A stretch of 46,238 nucleotides of DNA from contig CALGGB010000093.1 in assembly GCA_937880925.1 (NCBI GenBank), forward strand, positions 1 through 46,238, given 5' to 3'. The stretch comes from an uncultured Rhodospirillaceae bacterium. Lineage in GTDB: Bacteria > Pseudomonadota > Alphaproteobacteria > SP197. The position numbers and the translations under genes are program-made. Below are positions 3 to 9,386 of this stretch, piece by piece. A model generated the notes under the pieces. It was not told the origin of the DNA. It searched no databases and saw nothing but the letters and a program-made list of their open reading frames with translations. Each line of letters opens with the position of its first letter. The stretch's first letter is position 1.

Positions 3-965
3 CTCGCCTTCATCCTCGCCATGGCGCTCTGCGCCGCGGTGCTTACCAACGATGTCGCCGCCGCCATCGGCACGCCCATTGCCTTGCTGCTCGCCCGCGC
101 CAGGGGCTGGCGGCCAGTCGTGCCGCTGCTGGGCCTGTGCGCGGCGGTAACGGTCGGCAGCATGGCCACGCCGGTCGGCAATCCCCAGAACATTCTGATC
201 GCAACCGCCGGAGCACTATCCTCGCCCGTCACCACCTTTGCCCTGTGGCTGGGTGTGCCAGCCCTGCTGTCGCTGGCTTTCGTCTATCTCTGGCTGCGCC
301 GCCTTCTGGCTGAGGCGGATCGTGAGCCCGATGACGCCGCCACCCTGGCCCTGCCGCACGACCTCCCTCGCACCTGGCCGGCCTGGCTCGCCACGGCCCT
401 GCTGGTCAACCTGGTCTGCGCCGACAGCCTGGGCGGATTGCTCGCAACCGGCGTCCGCATCCCGCTGGGGCTGGCCAGCCTGATTGCCTGCCTGCCCGTC
501 TATCTGTTCGGCAGGCGCCGGCGCCGGAACTTTCTGGAGCTGGGCTGGCCGACGCTTGCCTTCTTCGTCGCCATGTTCGTCGTCACCGGCGCCCTGCTGC
601 AATCGGGCGCGCTTCAGGCCATGCTCGGGAACCACCGAGCACAGCTCGGGGAGCACGGTGTCACGGCGGGAATTGCCTTCTGGGCCAGCCAGGTCTTTTC
701 CAACGTGCCGCTGGTACAGATCTATCTGGAGCTTCTGGCCGAAAGGCAGGTGCCCAACCTGATGATGCTGGCGGGCATCTCGACGCTGGCGGGCAACCTC
801 TTCATCATCAGCGCGGCCAGCAATGTCATTGTCGTGCAGGAAGCCGAACGGTTCGGCAGGCAGCCGTTCCATTTCTGGCAATTCGCCTGGATCATGCTGC
901 CGGTTACGGTTGTTTCGGTCGTCCTCACCTGGGCCTGGGTCACCTGGCTCGCCACCCTTCTCTGA
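3..965 (+). CDS. ArsB/SLC13-type anion permease (5' truncated)
   Basis: The reading frame is open to the left edge, so the N-terminal part lies outside the window. The visible 300-odd residues are almost entirely hydrophobic helices. They carry the ion-transporter (IT) superfamily signatures: TNDVAAA, TPVGNPQN, SNVPL and a second AGNL...SN motif near the C terminus, matching the paired half-repeats of ArsB/NhaD/SLC13 permeases. It should be an inner-membrane transporter of an anion or carboxylate; the substrate cannot be read from sequence. The M81 peptidase gene starts 13 bp after its stop, so the two are probably cotranscribed, which may hint at uptake of an organic acid or peptide-derived compound. 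An arsenite-pump role is possible, but no other ars gene is nearby. Confidence 0.8.
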   Translation, partial: LAFILAMALCAAVLTNDVAAAIGTPIALLLARARGWRPVVPLLGLCAAVTVGSMATPVGNPQNILIATAGALSSPVTTFALWLGVPALLSLAFVYLWLRRLLAEADREPDDAATLALPHDLPRTWPAWLATALLVNLVCADSLGGLLATGVRIPLGLASLIACLPVYLFGRRRRRNFLELGWPTLAFFVAMFVVTGALLQSGALQAMLGNHRAQLGEHGVTAGIAFWASQVFSNVPLVQIYLELLAERQVPNLMMLAGISTLAGNLFIISAASNVIVVQEAERFGRQPFHFWQFAWIMLPVTVVSVVLTWAWVTWLATLL

Positions 966-978
966 CAGCGGGTTCGCC

Positions 979-2451
979 ATGCGCCTCTTCGTCGCCGGTC
1001 TGGGCACCGAGACCAACACCTTCGCCCCGTTCCCGACCGCCGAGCAGGGTTTCCGCGAGGGCGAGTGGTTTCCCGCCGGCAGCCATCCCGAATACCCCAC
1101 CTTCGCCGGCGCACCCCTGGTTGCGGCCCGCCAACGCGCCGCACAGGGCAACCACGAACTGGTCGAAGGCCTGTGCACCATGGCCGAGCCGGCAGGCATC
1201 ACCACGCGCCAGGCTTACGAGAGCCTGCGCGACGGGATTCTGGACCAGCTGCGCGCCGCCATGCCGGTCGACGTCGCGGCCTTCTACATGCACGGCGCCA
1301 TGATTGCCGAGGGCTACGACGACTGCGAGGGCGACATGCTGGCCCGCGCCCGCGCGATCGTCGGTCCGGATGTGGCGCTGGGCGCCGAACTCGATCTGCA
1401 CTGCCATCTCACGCCGCTCATGATCGAGGCCGCCGATGTCCTGGTCGCCTACAAGGAATATCCCCATACCGATATCCTGGAGCGCGCAGAGGAACTGATC
1501 GACCTGCTGATGGCGACGGCCCGCGGCGATATCCGCCCGGAAATGACCCTGGTCGATACGGGCATTCTGGTCATGATGCACACCAACCTGGATGAGGTGC
1601 GCGCCCTGGTAGACCGCATGAGCGCGCTGGAAGGCAGGGACGGGGTTCTCTCGGTCTCCCTGGGTCATGGCTTTCCCTATGGCGACGTCGCCGACATCGG
1701 CACCCGCGTGCTGGTGGTAACCGACAACCGGCCAGAGCACGGCCGCGTCCTGGCCACCACCCTTGCCGGCGAGGTCGCCGCCCTGCGCGGACGCACGGAA
1801 GCGCCCTACGTCTCGATCGACGCAGCCTTCGACCAGGCGCTGGCCATGGAACACGGCCCCGTCGTTCTGGCCGACAAGTCCGACAACGCCGGCGGCGGCG
1901 CGCCCGGCGATTCCACCTGGATGATCGCGCGCGCCCTGGAACGCGGTATCGGCAACCTGGCGGTCGGCCCGCTATGGGACCCGATCGCCGTGCGGACCTG
2001 CATGGATGCCGGGCTGGGCGCCACCCTGCCCCTGCGCTTCGGCGGCAAGATGTGCCCTCTGTCGGGCCAGCCGTTGGATCTGGAGGTCACGGTCACAGGC
2101 CTGGCCAGGGACGCCCAGCAGAGCCTGGGGACAGCGCAATCGGGCCTGGGAGATTGCGTGGCGATTCACGGCAGCGGCATCGACGTGGTTCTCACCACCG
2201 CGCGCACCCAGGCCTATTCACCTCATCTGTTCCGCAATGTCGGTATCGAGCCCACTGAACGCCACATCGTGATCGTCAAGTCGACCCAGCATTTCCAGGC
2301 CGGTTTCGCCCCTATCGCCAATGCCATCATCCATGTCGCCGCGCCCGGCGTGGTTGCGCCCGACTTCGGAAATCTGGTCTTCCACAAGATGGCGCGTCCA
2401 CGCTGGCCTTTCGATCAGGGCGAGCCGGAAATTCGCCTGATTGCCGGTTGA
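979..2451 (+). CDS. M81 family metallopeptidase (MlrC-like)
   Basis: A 490-residue protein of the M81 family, whose best-known member is microcystinase C (MlrC), a zinc hydrolase that cleaves linear peptides and Adda-type products. The ATG at 979 is chosen because the family N terminus (MRLFVAGLGTETNTF) begins there; the frame is open further upstream. The putative zinc ligands are D139-x-H141 and H163. The spacing of 2 and 22 residues is the same as recalled for characterised MlrC. The HGAM motif at 105-108 and the KSDNAGGG segment are also family hallmarks. It follows the permease by 13 bp and precedes three CocE-type hydrolases, suggesting a catabolic locus for peptide-like or ester substrates. 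The real substrate is unknown; most M81 members occur in bacteria that do not degrade microcystin. Confidence 0.88.
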   Translation: MRLFVAGLGTETNTFAPFPTAEQGFREGEWFPAGSHPEYPTFAGAPLVAARQRAAQGNHELVEGLCTMAEPAGITTRQAYESLRDGILDQLRAAMPVDVAAFYMHGAMIAEGYDDCEGDMLARARAIVGPDVALGAELDLHCHLTPLMIEAADVLVAYKEYPHTDILERAEELIDLLMATARGDIRPEMTLVDTGILVMMHTNLDEVRALVDRMSALEGRDGVLSVSLGHGFPYGDVADIGTRVLVVTDNRPEHGRVLATTLAGEVAALRGRTEAPYVSIDAAFDQALAMEHGPVVLADKSDNAGGGAPGDSTWMIARALERGIGNLAVGPLWDPIAVRTCMDAGLGATLPLRFGGKMCPLSGQPLDLEVTVTGLARDAQQSLGTAQSGLGDCVAIHGSGIDVVLTTARTQAYSPHLFRNVGIEPTERHIVIVKSTQHFQAGFAPIANAIIHVAAPGVVAPDFGNLVFHKMARPRWPFDQGEPEIRLIAG

Positions 2452-2523
2452 AATCAGGCCAGACGGTCGCCTCACCGGGCCCTTTCCTGCTAGGTTGGAG
2501 CACCTGCCTCGAGAGTCCTTTTC

Positions 2524-4542
2524 ATGCACAGCATTGTTGCGAACCCGCGTAGCGTGCGCGAGATCGAACATCTCTGGATTCCCCTGGCCGACGGCACCCG
2601 CCTTGCCGCGCGCATGTGGCTGCCCGAGGACGCCGAGGCCGATCCGGTTCCCGCGATCCTGGAATACATCCCCTACCGCAAGCGCGATGCCTGCCGCAGC
2701 AGCGACCGCCTGATGCACCAGCCCGTCGCCGAGGCCGGATACGCCTGCCTGCGCGTCGATATCCGCGGCAGCGGCGACAGCGAGGGCATCCTCACCGACG
2801 AATACACCGCCCAGGAACAGGCCGATGGCCTCGAGATTCTCGCCTGGATCGCCGCGCAACCCTGGTGCAGCGGTGCCGTGGGCATGATCGGCATCAGCTG
2901 GGGCGGCTTCAACGGCCTGCAGCTTGCCGCCCTGCGCCCGCGCGCCCTGAAGGCGGTGATCTCCGTCGGCTCCACCGACGACCGCTACGCCACCGACGTC
3001 CACTACTACGGCGGCGGCCTGACCAAGGACAACATCGATTGGTCGGCCGTCATGTTCTCCCACAACGCCCTGCCGCCCGACCCGGAAATCGTCGGCGAGA
3101 ACTGGCGCGCCATGTGGCTGGAGCGCCTGGAGGCCAACCGCCCCTGGGCGATCGGCTGGATGGCCCACCAGCGGCGCGATGCCTACTGGCGCCACGGCAG
3201 CGTGTGCGAGGACATCGGCGCCATCGAGATTCCCGTCATGGCGGTCAACGGTTGGGCCGACAACTACGCCGAGACGGTGCCGCGCCTGATGGCCACCCTG
3301 AAGGGTCCGCGCAAGGGGCTCGTCGGCCCCTGGGCGCACGACTATCCCAACACCGGGCTGCCCGGTCCCCAGATCGGCTTCCTGCAGGAATGCGTGCGCT
3401 GGTGGGACCGCTGGCTCAAGGGCATCGACAACGCCGTCATGGACGAACCCATGTACCGCGTGTGGATGCAGGAGCATGTGCCGCCGCGCGGCGAGTACAC
3501 CGAGCGTCCGGGCCGCTGGGTCGCCGAGCAGTCCTGGCCCAGCCCGCGCATCCAATGGCGGCATCTCGCCATGAACCCCGGCAGGCTGGAGGAAACCCCC
3601 GGCCCGGAAACGCCACTTGCGATCTGTTCCATGCTCTCCACCGGGCGCAGCCAGGGCGAACTGGGCCGCTACGGCAGCGGCGGCGAATGGCCCGGCGACC
3701 AGCGCGAGGACGATGGCGCCAGCCTTATCTTCCTTTCCGGTCCCCTGCCCGAGCGGACCGAGATTCTGGGCGCTCCCGTGGTGGAGCTGGTGATTTCTAG
3801 CGACCGTCCCGTGGCCCTTGCCGCCGTGCGCCTCAACGACGTTGCGCCCTCTGGCGCCTCGACCCGTGTGCAGCACGGCCTGCTCAACCTCACCCAGCGC
3901 GACGACCGCGAGCACATCGCGCCCCTGGTGCCCGGAGAGCGCTACCGCGTGCGCATCGAACTCGACGACATCGCCCATGCCTTCCCCGCCGGACACCGCA
4001 TCGCGGTCTCGGTGAGTTCGGCATACTGGCCCATGGTCTGGCCCTCGCCGGAGATGGCGACGCTCACGGTGGTCGCCGGCGCCAGCCGCCTGGAGCTGCC
4101 GGTGCGCCCGGCCGATCCCGCCGATGCGGAGCTGCGCGCCTTCGACCCGCCGGTCAGCGGCCCCGGTACGCCGATGACCACCCTGCGCGAACCCCGCCTC
4201 AACAACATCCTGATCACCCGCGACACCGCCCGTCAGGCGGTGACGGTGCAGATCGTGCGCGACCGCGGCCACCATCGCTTCGACGACATCGGCAGCGAAC
4301 TGGGCGAAAGCGGCGATGTCTTCTACCGCATCGCCGAGGACGATCCGCTCTCGGCGGAGGCCTGGACGGCGTTCGAAACGCTCTATGCACGCGGCGGCAT
4401 CGCCCTGCGCATCCTCACCCGCCAGCGCATGACCTGCACCGTCGACAGCTTCCGCCTGGAGGCCCAGATCGAGGCCTTCGAGAACGACACACCGGTGTTC
4501 ACGCGCACCTGGGACGAGAGCTTCCCGCGCGAGGGCATCTGA
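2524..4542 (+). CDS. CocE/NonD family serine hydrolase, copy 1
   Basis: A 672-residue alpha/beta hydrolase of the peptidase S15 type (cocaine esterase, X-Pro dipeptidyl-peptidase and glutaryl-7-ACA acylase relatives). The N-terminal half holds the catalytic domain: oxyanion tyrosine Y51 in PYRKRD, nucleophile S125 in GISWGG, D246 in GWADNY and H272 in GPWAHDY. The C-terminal half carries the PepX_C-type jelly roll, recognised by NDVAPSGASTRV and the HAFPAGHRIAVSVSS segment. No signal peptide is seen, so it is probably cytoplasmic. It is the first of three tandem paralogues. The start has only a weak GAGAG ribosome site. The protein is longer than CocE (574 residues), with about 100 extra residues at the C terminus. 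Substrate is unknown; ester or amide hydrolysis is inferred from family. Confidence 0.9.
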   Translation: MHSIVANPRSVREIEHLWIPLADGTRLAARMWLPEDAEADPVPAILEYIPYRKRDACRSSDRLMHQPVAEAGYACLRVDIRGSGDSEGILTDEYTAQEQADGLEILAWIAAQPWCSGAVGMIGISWGGFNGLQLAALRPRALKAVISVGSTDDRYATDVHYYGGGLTKDNIDWSAVMFSHNALPPDPEIVGENWRAMWLERLEANRPWAIGWMAHQRRDAYWRHGSVCEDIGAIEIPVMAVNGWADNYAETVPRLMATLKGPRKGLVGPWAHDYPNTGLPGPQIGFLQECVRWWDRWLKGIDNAVMDEPMYRVWMQEHVPPRGEYTERPGRWVAEQSWPSPRIQWRHLAMNPGRLEETPGPETPLAICSMLSTGRSQGELGRYGSGGEWPGDQREDDGASLIFLSGPLPERTEILGAPVVELVISSDRPVALAAVRLNDVAPSGASTRVQHGLLNLTQRDDREHIAPLVPGERYRVRIELDDIAHAFPAGHRIAVSVSSAYWPMVWPSPEMATLTVVAGASRLELPVRPADPADAELRAFDPPVSGPGTPMTTLREPRLNNILITRDTARQAVTVQIVRDRGHHRFDDIGSELGESGDVFYRIAEDDPLSAEAWTAFETLYARGGIALRILTRQRMTCTVDSFRLEAQIEAFENDTPVFTRTWDESFPREGI

Positions 4543-4591
4543 AGAAAAGCTGGAACGGCCGTCAGAGCCGGGGCGCAACAAGGAGAAGACC

Positions 4592-6610
4592 ATGGCCAGC
4601 ATCGTCGCAGTGCCGATGACCCTGCGGGACGTCGAGCATTTCTGGATCCCCCTGCCCGATGGCACCCGTCTGGCCGCGCGCATGTGGCTGCCAGAGGGTT
4701 CGCAGGACACGCCCGTACCCGCGATCCTGGAGTACATCCCCTACCGCAAGCGCGACGGCACCCGGGGCCGCGACGAAAACCTGCATGTCCCCATCGCCGA
4801 GGCCGGTTATGCCGTGCTGCGCGTCGACCTGCGTGGCACCGGCGACAGCGAGGGCGTCTGTCACGACGAATACCTGCCCCAGGAACTGCAGGACGGCTGC
4901 GACGTCATCGCATGGATCGCCGAACAGACTTGGTGCAACGGCAAGGTGGGCATCATCGGCAAGTCCTGGGGCGGCTTCAACGGCCTGCAGCTTGCCGCCC
5001 TGCGCCCGCCGGCCCTGAAGGCGATCATCTCCGTGGGCTCCACCGACGACCGCTACGCCACCGACGTCCACTACTACGGCGGGTGCCTGACCAAGGACAA
5101 TCTGGACTGGTCGGCCTACATGTTCGCGCTCAACGGCATGCCGCCCGATCCCGAACTCGTCGGGGAGGACTGGCGCGCCATGTGGCTGGACCGCCTGGAA
5201 GCCAACCAGCCCTGGGCGATCCCCTGGATGGAGCACCAGCGGCGCGACAACTACTGGCGCCACGGCAGCGTCTGCGAGGATTTCTCCCTGATCGAGACGC
5301 CCTGTTTCCTGGTCAACGGCTGGGGCGACAACTACAGCGAGGCGATCCCACGCATGCTGGCCGGGCTTTCCTGCCCGCGGAAAGGTCTGATCGGCCCCTG
5401 GGCGCATGTCTATCCCCACGACGGCGGCCCCGGCCCGGAGATCGGCTTCCTGCAGGAATGTCTGCGCTGGTGGGACCATTGGCTGAAAGACATCGACACC
5501 GGGATCATGGACGAACCCATGCTGCGCGCCTGGATGTGCGACGGCCGCCCGCCGCGCACCGAATACACCACCCTGCCCGGCCGCTGGGTCGCCGAGGCGA
5601 CCTGGCCCAGCCCGCGCACCCAGTGGCGCGAGCTTGCCCTCAACCCCGGCCGCCTCGATGACGTGGCCGGGCCGGAAACGCCCTTGCCGATCTGCTCCAT
5701 GCAGACCACCGGCCTCACCCAGGGCGAACTCGGCCGCTACGGCAGCGGCGGCGAATGGCCCAGCGACCAGCGCGAGGATGACGGCGCCAGCCTGGTCTTT
5801 GTCACCGAGCCCCTGACCGAAGAAGTGGAAATCCTGGGCGCCCCGCTGGTCGATCTGGTGATTGCCTCGGACAAGCCCGTCGCCTTCGTCGCCGTGCGTC
5901 TCAACGACGTTGCGCCCTCGGGCGCCTCGACCCGCGTCCACCACGGCATCCTCAATCTCACCCGGCGCGACGGCATGGACCGCACCGATCCGCTGGAGCC
6001 GGGCAAACCCTGTTCCGTCACCGTGGAGATCGACGACATCGCGCACCGTTTCGCTCCCGGCCATCGCATCGCGCTCTCGATCTCGTCGACCAACTGGCCG
6101 CTGGTCTGGCCCAGCCCAGAGGTCGTGACGCTAACCATCCACGCGGGCGCCAGCCGCCTGCGCCTGCCGGTGCGCCCGGCCGATCCCGCCGACGCCGACC
6201 TCCCCGACTACGGCCCGCCCCTTGGCGGCGAAGCCGGCCCGGTAACGACCCTGCGCGAAGGCCCGCCCAACACCCGCGACATCCACCGCGATGCCTATAC
6301 GGGCGAGACCATCGTGCGCCTGCCGCGCAAGGATGGCGCCTACCGCATCGAGGACATCAACATGGAGACCCACGGTGACGGCTCCATCTGGCACCGCATC
6401 GTCGAGGGCGACCCCACATCGGCCACCCAGTGGTCAGCCTTCACCATGGGCCGGCGGCGCGGCGACTGGCACGTCGAATCCCGGACAACCCAACGCCTGT
6501 CCTGCACGGAGAGTGCTTTCCGGCTGGAAGCCAGCATCGAGGTCGACGACAACGGCGAGCGCATCTTTGAGCGCAGCTGGGATCTGACCATCCCGCGCGA
6601 CGGCATCTGA
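4592..6610 (+). CDS. CocE/NonD family serine hydrolase, copy 2
   Basis: The second paralogue, also 672 residues and alignable end to end with copy 1 without obvious gaps through the catalytic domain. The triad is intact: Y51 (PYRKRD), S125 in GKSWGG, D246 in GWGDNY and H272 in GPWAHVY. The residue before the nucleophile is Lys124 instead of Ile as in copies 1 and 3, which could alter the pocket next to the active serine. A strong AAGGAG ribosome site precedes the ATG. It starts 49 bp after copy 1 and ends 15 bp before copy 3, so the three are almost certainly one transcript. The PepX_C-like jelly-roll domain is present. It has no signal peptide. Confidence 0.9.
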   Translation: MASIVAVPMTLRDVEHFWIPLPDGTRLAARMWLPEGSQDTPVPAILEYIPYRKRDGTRGRDENLHVPIAEAGYAVLRVDLRGTGDSEGVCHDEYLPQELQDGCDVIAWIAEQTWCNGKVGIIGKSWGGFNGLQLAALRPPALKAIISVGSTDDRYATDVHYYGGCLTKDNLDWSAYMFALNGMPPDPELVGEDWRAMWLDRLEANQPWAIPWMEHQRRDNYWRHGSVCEDFSLIETPCFLVNGWGDNYSEAIPRMLAGLSCPRKGLIGPWAHVYPHDGGPGPEIGFLQECLRWWDHWLKDIDTGIMDEPMLRAWMCDGRPPRTEYTTLPGRWVAEATWPSPRTQWRELALNPGRLDDVAGPETPLPICSMQTTGLTQGELGRYGSGGEWPSDQREDDGASLVFVTEPLTEEVEILGAPLVDLVIASDKPVAFVAVRLNDVAPSGASTRVHHGILNLTRRDGMDRTDPLEPGKPCSVTVEIDDIAHRFAPGHRIALSISSTNWPLVWPSPEVVTLTIHAGASRLRLPVRPADPADADLPDYGPPLGGEAGPVTTLREGPPNTRDIHRDAYTGETIVRLPRKDGAYRIEDINMETHGDGSIWHRIVEGDPTSATQWSAFTMGRRRGDWHVESRTTQRLSCTESAFRLEASIEVDDNGERIFERSWDLTIPRDGI

Positions 6611-6625
6611 GAAGAAAGCACAACA

Positions 6626-8647
6626 ATGACCGACAGCCTGGTTGCCAACCCACGCGCGATCCACGAGATCGAACACTGCTGGATTCCCTTGCCCGACGGC
6701 ACGCGCCTGGCGGCCAAGATCTGGCTGCCGATTGATGCCGAGGAGGAGCCTGTTCCCGCGATCCTGGAATACCTGCCCTACCGCAAGCGCGACGGCACCC
6801 GCGGCCGTGATCGCACCAACCACCCGCCGGTCGCGGAAGCCGGCTACGCCTGCATCCGCGTCGACATCCGCGGCACCGGCGACAGCGAGGGCGTCTATCA
6901 CGACGAGTACACCGTGCAGGAGCAGCTCGACGGCTGCGATGTCATCGCCTGGATCGCCGAGCAGCCCTGGTGCACCGGCGCGGTCGGCATCATCGGCATC
7001 AGCTGGGGCGGCTTCAACGGCCTGCAGATCGCCGCGCGCCGCCCCCCGGCGCTGAAGGCCATCATCACCATCGGCTCCACCGACGACCGCTACGCCACCG
7101 ACGTCCACTACTACGGTGGCTGCCTGATCAAGGACAATATCGGCTGGGGCGGCGTCATGTTCGGCATCAACGCCCTGCCGCCCGATCCCGAGCTGGTAGG
7201 CGAGGACTGGCGCGACATGTGGATGGCGCGCCTGGAAGCCGATACGCCCTGGACCCTGGAATGGCTGCGCCACCAGCGTCGCGACGCCTACTGGCAGCAG
7301 GGCAGCGTCAACCAGGACTTCTCGAAGATCGCATGCGCGGTCTATGCCGTCTCCGGCTGGGCCGACAACTACAACGAGGCCGTGCCGCGCCTGCTCGCCG
7401 GCCTCTCCTGCCCGCGCAAGGGTCTCTCGGGCCCCTGGGCGCACCAGTACCCCAACAAGGGTCACCCCGGCCCGGCCATCGACTTCCTGGGCGAGACCGT
7501 GCGCTGGTGGGACCACTGGCTGAAGGGTATCGACACCGGAATCATGGACGAACCCATGTACCGCGCCTGGATCCAGGACAGCGCTCCGCCCGCCACCGTC
7601 TATCCCGAGCGGCCCGGCCGCTGGGTGGGCGAACCGTCCTGGCCCAGCCCCAACATCGAGACCCGCGTCTTCGCCATGAACCCCGGTCGCCTTGATGAAA
7701 AGCCGGGCGACGAGACGCCGCTCGTGCTCTGCTCCCTGCAGGCCACCGGTACCCATCAGGCCATGCTCTGCCATCACGGTGAGCCCGGCACCTTCTCCTC
7801 CGACCAGCGCGGCGACGATGCTGCGAGCCTCGTCTTCGTCTCCGAACCCCTGGCCGAGCCCGCCGAGATCCTGGGCGCGCCCATCGTGGAACTCACGCTC
7901 GCAAGCGACCGGCCCAACGCCTTCGTCGCCGTGCGCCTCAACGATGTCGCCCCCTCGGGCGCTTCGACCCGCGTCCACCACGGCGTGCTCAACCTCAACC
8001 GCCGCAGGGGCATGGACCGCAGCGATCCCCTGGTACCGGGCGAACCGGTTACCGTGCGGGTCGAGATCGACGACATCGGCCATGCCTTCCCGGCCGGGCA
8101 CCGCATCGCCGTATCGGTTTCCTCGACCTACTTCCCCCTCGTCTGGCCCTCGCCCAAGGCGGTGACGCTGACCTTGCTCGCCGGACGCTGCCATCTGGAA
8201 CTGCCGGTGCGCCGCCCCGACGCGCCCGACGGGACCTTCGCCCCCTTCGGCGCGCCGGTGAACGGTCCGGGCAGTGCGATGACTCCCGTCGCCAAGGGCC
8301 AGGGCCTGCGCCGCGAGGTGCTGCGTGACATTGCCAGCAGCACCACCATGACCCATCAGGTCCAGGACAGTGGCCTCAACCGGCACGACGACACCGGCGA
8401 GATCGAGGGCGAACGCGGCGAAAACTGGCACAGCATCGTCGAGGGCGATCCCGCCACCGCCCGCTCGCGCACCGAACGCGTCGACACCTGGCAGAAGGAT
8501 GGCATCGCCATCGAGATCCGCACCCGCCAGGAGCTCTGGGCCGACGCTGCCGACTTTCACTTCAGCGCCGAGCTGGAGGCCTTCGAGAACGGCGCCAGCG
8601 TCTTCTCGCGCTCCTGGAGCGAGACGGTACCGCGCGACGGCAACTGA
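6626..8647 (+). CDS. CocE/NonD family serine hydrolase, copy 3
   Basis: The third paralogue (673 residues, one residue longer at the N terminus). The catalytic set is Y52, S126 in GISWGG, D247 in GWADNY and H273 in GPWAHQY, all retained. It starts 15 bp after copy 2 with a GAGAAG ribosome site. In the middle region it differs most from the other two: GIGWGGVMFGIN replaces the DWSA...MFS/AL segment, and the LCHHGEPGTFSSDQR stretch replaces LGRYGSGGEWP(G/S)DQR. This suggests a divergent substrate pocket in one copy. The C-terminal 110 residues are also more diverged. All three copies look functional; none shows a frameshift or a lost catalytic residue. Confidence 0.9.
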   Translation: MTDSLVANPRAIHEIEHCWIPLPDGTRLAAKIWLPIDAEEEPVPAILEYLPYRKRDGTRGRDRTNHPPVAEAGYACIRVDIRGTGDSEGVYHDEYTVQEQLDGCDVIAWIAEQPWCTGAVGIIGISWGGFNGLQIAARRPPALKAIITIGSTDDRYATDVHYYGGCLIKDNIGWGGVMFGINALPPDPELVGEDWRDMWMARLEADTPWTLEWLRHQRRDAYWQQGSVNQDFSKIACAVYAVSGWADNYNEAVPRLLAGLSCPRKGLSGPWAHQYPNKGHPGPAIDFLGETVRWWDHWLKGIDTGIMDEPMYRAWIQDSAPPATVYPERPGRWVGEPSWPSPNIETRVFAMNPGRLDEKPGDETPLVLCSLQATGTHQAMLCHHGEPGTFSSDQRGDDAASLVFVSEPLAEPAEILGAPIVELTLASDRPNAFVAVRLNDVAPSGASTRVHHGVLNLNRRRGMDRSDPLVPGEPVTVRVEIDDIGHAFPAGHRIAVSVSSTYFPLVWPSPKAVTLTLLAGRCHLELPVRRPDAPDGTFAPFGAPVNGPGSAMTPVAKGQGLRREVLRDIASSTTMTHQVQDSGLNRHDDTGEIEGERGENWHSIVEGDPATARSRTERVDTWQKDGIAIEIRTRQELWADAADFHFSAELEAFENGASVFSRSWSETVPRDGN

Positions 8648-8747
8648 GCCATCCACCGGCAAACTGCGCTCGCGGCGCTCCGCGGGGTAGAAGCCGGCGC
8701 GATATCGGGCGAGGTTGAGGCTTGTCGATTCGCGTTGGGAACGCCAC

Positions 8748-9386
8748 ATGCGCACCGTTTTGGTCGCCAACATCAAGGGTGGCTGCGGCAAGACGACGCT
8801 GGCCACCAATCTCGCCGTCGCCTTTGCCGTTGCCGGCAAGGCCGTGGCGCTGGCCGATGCCGACCGCCAGAAGAGCAGCCTGCAGTGGTGCCAGATGCGC
8901 CCCGAGGGCGTTCCCGTCGTGCAGGGCCTCAACTGGACCAAGCGCCAGGGCGAGGTGCCCAAGGGCATCGACCGCCTCGTGATCGACGCTCCCGCCGCCA
9001 TGACCCCGGCGCAGTCGGAGGCCCTGGTCGATCTCGCCGACGTCGTGCTGGTACCCGTGCTGCCCTCCGTCTTTGACGAAAGCGCCACGCGTCGCTTCCT
9101 GGCCCGCATCGAGGAGATCAAGGCGATCCGCAAGCAGCGCAAGGGCCTGGCGCTGGTCGCCAACCGGGTACGCGCCCATACCCGTGCCGCCGACCGCCTG
9201 GAGGCCTTCCTTGCCGAAGTCGGCCACGAGGCCGCCGGGCGCATCGCCGACCGCGCGATCTACGGCGAACTCGCCGTCCAGGGCCTGAGCCTCTTCGACG
9301 TCAACACCCGTCCCGCGATCGAAACCGCCGTCCACTGGCTGCCCCTGCTGGGTTTCATCGAGGACAGCCTGCGCGGAAAACGCTGA
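8748..9386 (+). CDS. Orphan ParA/MinD-type ATPase
   Basis: A 212-residue deviant-Walker-A ATPase. The signature KGGCGKTT sits at the extreme N terminus, with signature lysine K10 and phosphate-binding K15. The Walker B-like strand is RLVIDAPA, and a PSVFD segment follows. Such proteins dimerise on ATP and bind nucleoid DNA to segregate or position plasmids, chromosomes, chemoreceptor clusters or granules. The ATG at 8748 is chosen because the family begins MRTVLVANIKGG; an in-frame upstream start would add 11 residues with no conserved role. No parB, parS-like repeat or replication gene is nearby, so it is an orphan. It lies 100 bp after the hydrolase cluster and is convergent with the crotonase gene, only 4 bp apart. 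Confidence 0.87.
   Translation: MRTVLVANIKGGCGKTTLATNLAVAFAVAGKAVALADADRQKSSLQWCQMRPEGVPVVQGLNWTKRQGEVPKGIDRLVIDAPAAMTPAQSEALVDLADVVLVPVLPSVFDESATRRFLARIEEIKAIRKQRKGLALVANRVRAHTRAADRLEAFLAEVGHEAAGRIADRAIYGELAVQGLSLFDVNTRPAIETAVHWLPLLGFIEDSLRGKR

Follow-up and report, generated by a model that had tools for sequence, protein, structure and literature searches.

A trio of tandem CocE/NonD hydrolase genes in an uncultured Rhodospirillaceae bacterium probably arose by local duplication and diverged toward different substrates

The closest described relatives of the proteins considered here are enzymes with an S15 fold, namely the cocaine esterase CocE (PDB 3pui, 1ju3, 3puh), alpha-amino acid ester hydrolase (PDB 1mpx, 2b4k), the X-prolyl dipeptidyl peptidase PepX (PDB 1lns, 6nff), and a thaumarchaeal S15 aminopeptidase (PDB 4pf1). 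We compared them with three tandem hydrolase genes, hereafter copies 1, 2, and 3, that lie on a 46,238-nucleotide stretch of DNA from an uncultured Rhodospirillaceae bacterium (assembly GCA_937880925.1, contig CALGGB010000093.1, positions 1 to 46,238), which we call the window. CocE is the best match of the trio both in fold (TM 0.65-0.67 by query length) and in sequence, and has in common with it the S15 catalytic domain, the PepX_C layout, and the Ser-Asp-His plus Tyr set. However, identity to CocE is about 24%, the trio proteins are about 100 residues longer and carry an extra C-terminal beta domain, and the conserved residues Asp152, Asp158, and His160 are absent from CocE in the alignment. 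Alpha-amino acid ester hydrolase shares the S15 fold at about 20% identity (E about 1e-33 to 1e-35), and PepX shares the S15 catalytic domain and PepX_C at 13% identity. The thaumarchaeal enzyme is a fold relative from a different subfamily (20% identity); since it was deposited as an aminopeptidase, amide-cleaving members exist nearby in the fold.

Five genes on the + strand of the window follow one another in the order anion permease, M81/MlrC-like metallopeptidase, copies 1, 2, and 3. The permease gene (21..965; CitMHS/DASS type, PF03600 E 2.6e-27) has its true start outside the window, and the sister genome G001 holds a 416-aa gene at the matching position. The metallopeptidase gene (979..2451; 490 aa, PF07364 and PF07171) begins 13 bp further on, and a spacer of 72 bp (2452..2523) separates it from copy 1 (2524..4542; 672 aa), copy 2 (4592..6610; 672 aa), and copy 3 (6626..8647; 673 aa), all of which have ATG starts. 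Because neither a promoter-like site nor a + strand terminator-like site was found in a scan of positions 800-9000, it is plausible that the five genes form one operon, co-transcription being suggested by their spacing. A ParA-like ATPase gene lies downstream of the trio; it is also present in G001 and was not seen at the corresponding place in genus g2.

The original prediction described three intact colinear paralogues separated by 49 and 15 bp, each with a full Tyr/Ser/Asp/His set, and our analysis bears this out in lengths, frames, and gaps. Pairwise protein identities among the copies are 64.9, 61.0, and 60.4%, and three unbroken 2-kb homologous frames at this level of identity exclude chance. 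All three proteins match PF02129 (Peptidase_S15, E 3e-64 to 3e-67), PF08530 (PepX_C, E about 1e-42), and TIGR00976 (CocE_NonD, 244-258 bits against a cut-off of 66.3). By contrast, they do not qualify as X-Pro dipeptidyl-peptidases, as their best scores for PepX in NCBIfam are 87-104 bits against 642. Every copy has Tyr51, Ser125, Asp246, and His272 (numbered as in copy 2); among 160 relatives the last three are invariant and the tyrosine is found in 159. At the 111 family columns conserved to at least 95%, copies 1 and 3 never depart from the consensus and copy 2 departs once (V238C). No signal peptide is evident in the trio, the hydrolase domain beginning at about residue 16-23.

The local differences noted earlier among the copies are likewise real. 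Copy 2 has Lys immediately before nucleophile Ser125, where copies 1 and 3 have Ile, and copy 3 differs from the others near residues 165-178 (LIKDNIGWGGVMFG) and 377-392 (QAMLCHHGEPGTFSSDQ). Lys124 is no singularity of copy 2, as it occurs in 13 of the 160 relatives, across more than one orthogroup. At the position matching Lys124, the PDB titles of two engineered CocE structures, 7f65 and 9k48, give a V116K substitution.

AF2 models of copies 2 and 3 (pLDDT 95.3 and 94.7) matched, in descending order, cocaine esterase, alpha-amino acid ester hydrolase, the archaeal S15 aminopeptidase, and PepX. The C-terminal part of the copy 2 model is all-beta, with eight strands from residue 551 on. This domain (residues 541-672; 6212..6607 on the + strand in copy 2) is found throughout the subfamily with a mean column occupancy of 0.99, and searches with it found nothing in Pfam and no significant sequence match in the PDB. 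It is also the most divergent part of the trio: between-copy identity is 70-72% for residues 1-300 and 62-69% for residues 301-540, but only 31-41% for residues 541-672.

Between copies, dN is 0.28-0.34 and dS 0.52-0.66. Codon mismatch at same-residue sites reaches 69-83% of saturation, and the resulting dN/dS of about 0.5 is thus an upper bound only. With synonymous sites near saturation and a GC3 of 0.89, we rejected this ratio as evidence of positive selection. Comparison with the G001 orthologues gave a dN/dS of about 0.25 for copies 2 and 3, and of 0.20 for the M81 gene. Long exact runs of 44-47 nt shared around the nucleophile first hinted at gene conversion between the copies. This was rejected, as sites that group the paralogues of one genome are scarce (33 vs 283) and unclustered (p 0.38).

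These figures bear on a rival account of the trio, in which the three copies do one job as a redundant amplification, persisting by chance or for expression level. Identical catalytic residues in the three copies fit such an account, as does a copy number that is labile (3, 2, or 1) among relatives. However, the copies are just 60-65% identical and older than the split between genera, they show no clustered gene conversion, and their orthologues keep copy-specific residues, so that we regard simple dosage as unlikely. Specialised substrates, one of the two proposals made for the trio at the outset, fare better. The G001 orthologues retain the copy-specific residues (Lys124 in that of copy 2, the QA.LCHHGE loop in that of copy 3), and this retention, together with the dN/dS of about 0.25 and the divergence of the C-terminal domain, lends the predicted substrate specialisation of the copies indirect support and makes it likely.

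We traced the history of the copies in a tree of 160 subfamily members and in a careful tree of 17. A clade of 11 with 100/100 support comprises the trio, its relatives in G001 and genus g2, and single copies in G003 and G005. Within it, copy 1 stands alone, copy 2 pairs with its G001 orthologue (81% identity), and copy 3 groups with orthologues in G001 (84%) and in g2 (71-74%), in the latter of which it is the sole copy of the trio clade. Among the relatives collected, none exceeds 65% identity to copy 1, for which no orthologue was found. A triplication confined to the genus was rejected (AU p 2e-6); therefore at least one duplication predates the g1/g2 split, probably followed by the loss of copies. 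As to the order of duplication, the AU test gave p 0.06 for copies 1 and 2 held together and 0.42 for copy 1 held with the copy 3 clade.

Retention of three active copies had been emphasised at the outset. It describes the window genome, where all are intact, but is not general. Copy 1 is missing from the sister species G001, which has the other two, and the four g2 genomes keeping the trio clade have the copy-3 type only. Closely related strains with a single copy and decaying remnants of the others had been named as evidence that would count against the proposal; fewer copies are indeed found in G001 and g2, but the absence is clean, with no decaying copies.

The same distribution weighs on the second proposal, that the three proteins form a hetero-oligomer. 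They are adjacent paralogues of similar length, probably co-transcribed, and cocaine esterase is a dimer according to the title of PDB 3puh. However, an obligate assembly predicts that the three partners are kept together in related genomes, and they are not: G001 lacks copy 1, and in g2 the copy-3 type is the only one of this clade, so that copy 3, at any rate, persists independently of its partners. Most paralogues in family f1, moreover, do not adjoin another copy. Given that G001 keeps two copies and the g2 genomes one, an obligate three-part form is disfavoured, and we consider a hetero-oligomer, obligate or preferred, very unlikely.

In G001, copy 2 directly follows the M81 gene, and its 5′ end departs from the rest of the gene. 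Of the 32 informative sites in its first 144 nt, 25 match copy 1, compared with about 28% in the remainder (Fisher p = 2.4e-8), as expected if unequal crossing-over removed copy 1. By eye, the spacer between the M81 gene and copy 1 in the window also resembles the one between the M81 gene and copy 2 in G001, with CTGCTAGG-TG and TCGAGA in common. An unequal crossing-over between copies 1 and 2 would explain this arrangement most simply.

The trio belongs to a larger set of about 13 paralogues of the subfamily in the window genome, five of them in tandem (the trio and a pair on contig C190), which argues that tandem duplication is common among genes of this family and not peculiar to a single operon. 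A search of the 16 genomes in the window's taxonomic family at E 0.001 gave 7-20 matches per genome; in most of the 25 other sampled families the number was 0-3, and these were mostly weak. The expansion is not unique to the window's family, as other alphaproteobacterial families reach 4-11 matches. Copy number also varies within the family: under a stricter threshold, 14 matches, fragments included, were counted in G003 and five in G006. In a class-wide sample, with counts per genome limited to four, the subfamily was found in 36 of 289 genomes. One genome of another alphaproteobacterial family holds six CocE-like paralogues within 20.5 kb (G100 C7:474599-495132). Two further CocE-like paralogues contain one in-frame stop each, TGA in L127 (G000 C2:2302-4296) and TAG in L143 (G001 C184:272-2233); these are either decaying copies or assembly errors, whereas the trio is intact.

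Neighbouring genes hint at the compounds handled by the family. Many paralogues in the window's family adjoin Opp/Dpp-type permeases, ATPases, or SBP_bac_5 proteins, and some adjoin deacylases, namely FGase (N-formylglutamate amidohydrolase), DoeB-like AstE/AspA, and M20 proteins. In NCBIfam, the AstE/AspA neighbour matches DoeB best, the deacetylase of the ectoine pathway, with a score under the cut-off. Two observations count against a role in handling imported amino-acid- or peptide-like compounds: the deacylase neighbours score under the NCBIfam equivalog cut-offs, and the operon in the window itself has no ABC transporter.

The M81 neighbour raises the question of cyanobacterial peptides. 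Its protein is a clear member of M81 (PF07364 E 2e-79) and aligns over nearly its full length to microcystinase C (7ylq), with E11, D139, H141, and H163 matching all four zinc ligands of MlrC, E39, D167, H169, and H191 (PMC9982164). This alignment, and the lake water origin of some relatives given in contig titles, would fit the trio and the M81 enzyme jointly processing linear microcystin-like or other cyanobacterial peptides. However, the protein scores 439 bits against the NCBIfam exception cut-off of 999 for microcystinase MlrC, and M81 proteins are frequent in these genomes, with 1-8 in the window's family and up to 38 elsewhere; we therefore hold a role in microcystin breakdown to be extremely unlikely. 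Genomes G191 and G286 of family f56 each have 34-38 M81 metallopeptidase matches, several of them in tandem.

Elsewhere, members of the subfamily have a different neighbour. A same-strand ATP-grasp gene adjoins 57 of 77 subfamily genes from Gammaproteobacteria, Actinomycetota, and some Alphaproteobacteria, a figure that does not count independent events because the loci lean to near relatives and densely sequenced genera. The ATP-grasp-linked members, from Halospina, Chromohalobacter, Amycolatopsis, and Streptomyces, resemble the trio in length and C-terminal domain at about 45-52% identity and differ from the loci of the window's family in this adjoining gene, which was found at none of the hydrolase loci scanned in that family. 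In loci such as L033, L046, and L038, a two-gene module pairs a CocE-like hydrolase of 670 aa with an ATP-grasp protein of about 434 aa, the genes often nearly touching or overlapping. In halophilic Gammaproteobacteria, a 556-aa ectoine synthase-ATP-grasp fusion directly follows a CocE-like hydrolase (L019:10109-11779, with counterparts in the L020 and L027 genomes); Halospina and two relatives carry such a fusion. In the open literature searched we found no paper on a CocE-ATP-grasp or EctC-ATP-grasp pair, which may be described elsewhere. A 318-aa neighbour, cl14, considered as a degenerate ATP-grasp protein, was unsupported by profile comparison.

Ectoine synthase-like genes also occur in arrays of their own. 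On G000 C95:26592-32833 (L196:8593-14834), six tandem genes encode proteins of about 270-290 aa with two ectoine-synthase domains (PF06339) each. A GcvT-like gene lies among the six, and the array adjoins three tandem AstE/AspA-like genes, two of which were checked, and an SBP_bac_5 peptide-type ABC transporter operon. Solitary EctC-like gene arrays are also present in G001 C106, G012 C127, and G004 C3. One could imagine that enzymes of the long S15/CocE subfamily hydrolyse what partner ATP-grasp ligases make in halophiles and actinobacteria, namely amide conjugates of amino acids resembling ectoine or diaminobutyrate. In the window's lineage the hydrolases would have lost their link to the ligase and expanded, together with peptide-type importers and DoeB-like deacylases, to consume a range of such compounds. 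We rate this wider scheme as quite unlikely.

On balance we favour a plainer account, in which the trio are cytoplasmic CocE/NonD (S15) hydrolases of a catabolic operon that were locally duplicated and diverged toward different substrates. The proteins would be cytoplasmic serine hydrolases of the long (about 670 aa) CocE/NonD subfamily. By homology to CocE, Ser125 with Asp246 and His272 would attack an ester or amide bond, and Tyr51 would help to stabilise the oxyanion. Given the fold matches together with the ABC transporter, deacylase, and ATP-grasp neighbours, ester or amide hydrolysis of small imported amino-acid-like compounds is the most likely activity, with both activity and bond preference predicted. 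Encoded beside an anion permease and an M81 metallopeptidase in that operon, the three proteins may act on small imported amino-acid- or peptide-like compounds. Local duplication would have preceded the g1/g2 split and been followed by divergence at position 124, in loop 377-392, and in the C-terminal beta domain, such that each copy probably prefers a different substrate; copy number would have changed later among species, in G001 through unequal crossing-over.

The trio thus resembles an adaptable set of tools for cleaving small molecules after import, not a fixed three-part machine. As ordinary, clear tandem paralogues, the three genes have low novelty, whereas that of the subfamily and its ATP-grasp neighbour is moderate. 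They point to a large, little-known subfamily of serine hydrolases with its own C-terminal domain and, in other phyla, a frequent ATP-grasp neighbour. Identification of a substrate would reveal a class of amide- or ester-linked small molecules taken up by aquatic bacteria, and the natural series of 3, 2, and 1 copies, together with the recombinant enzyme of G001, would then test how specificity evolved.
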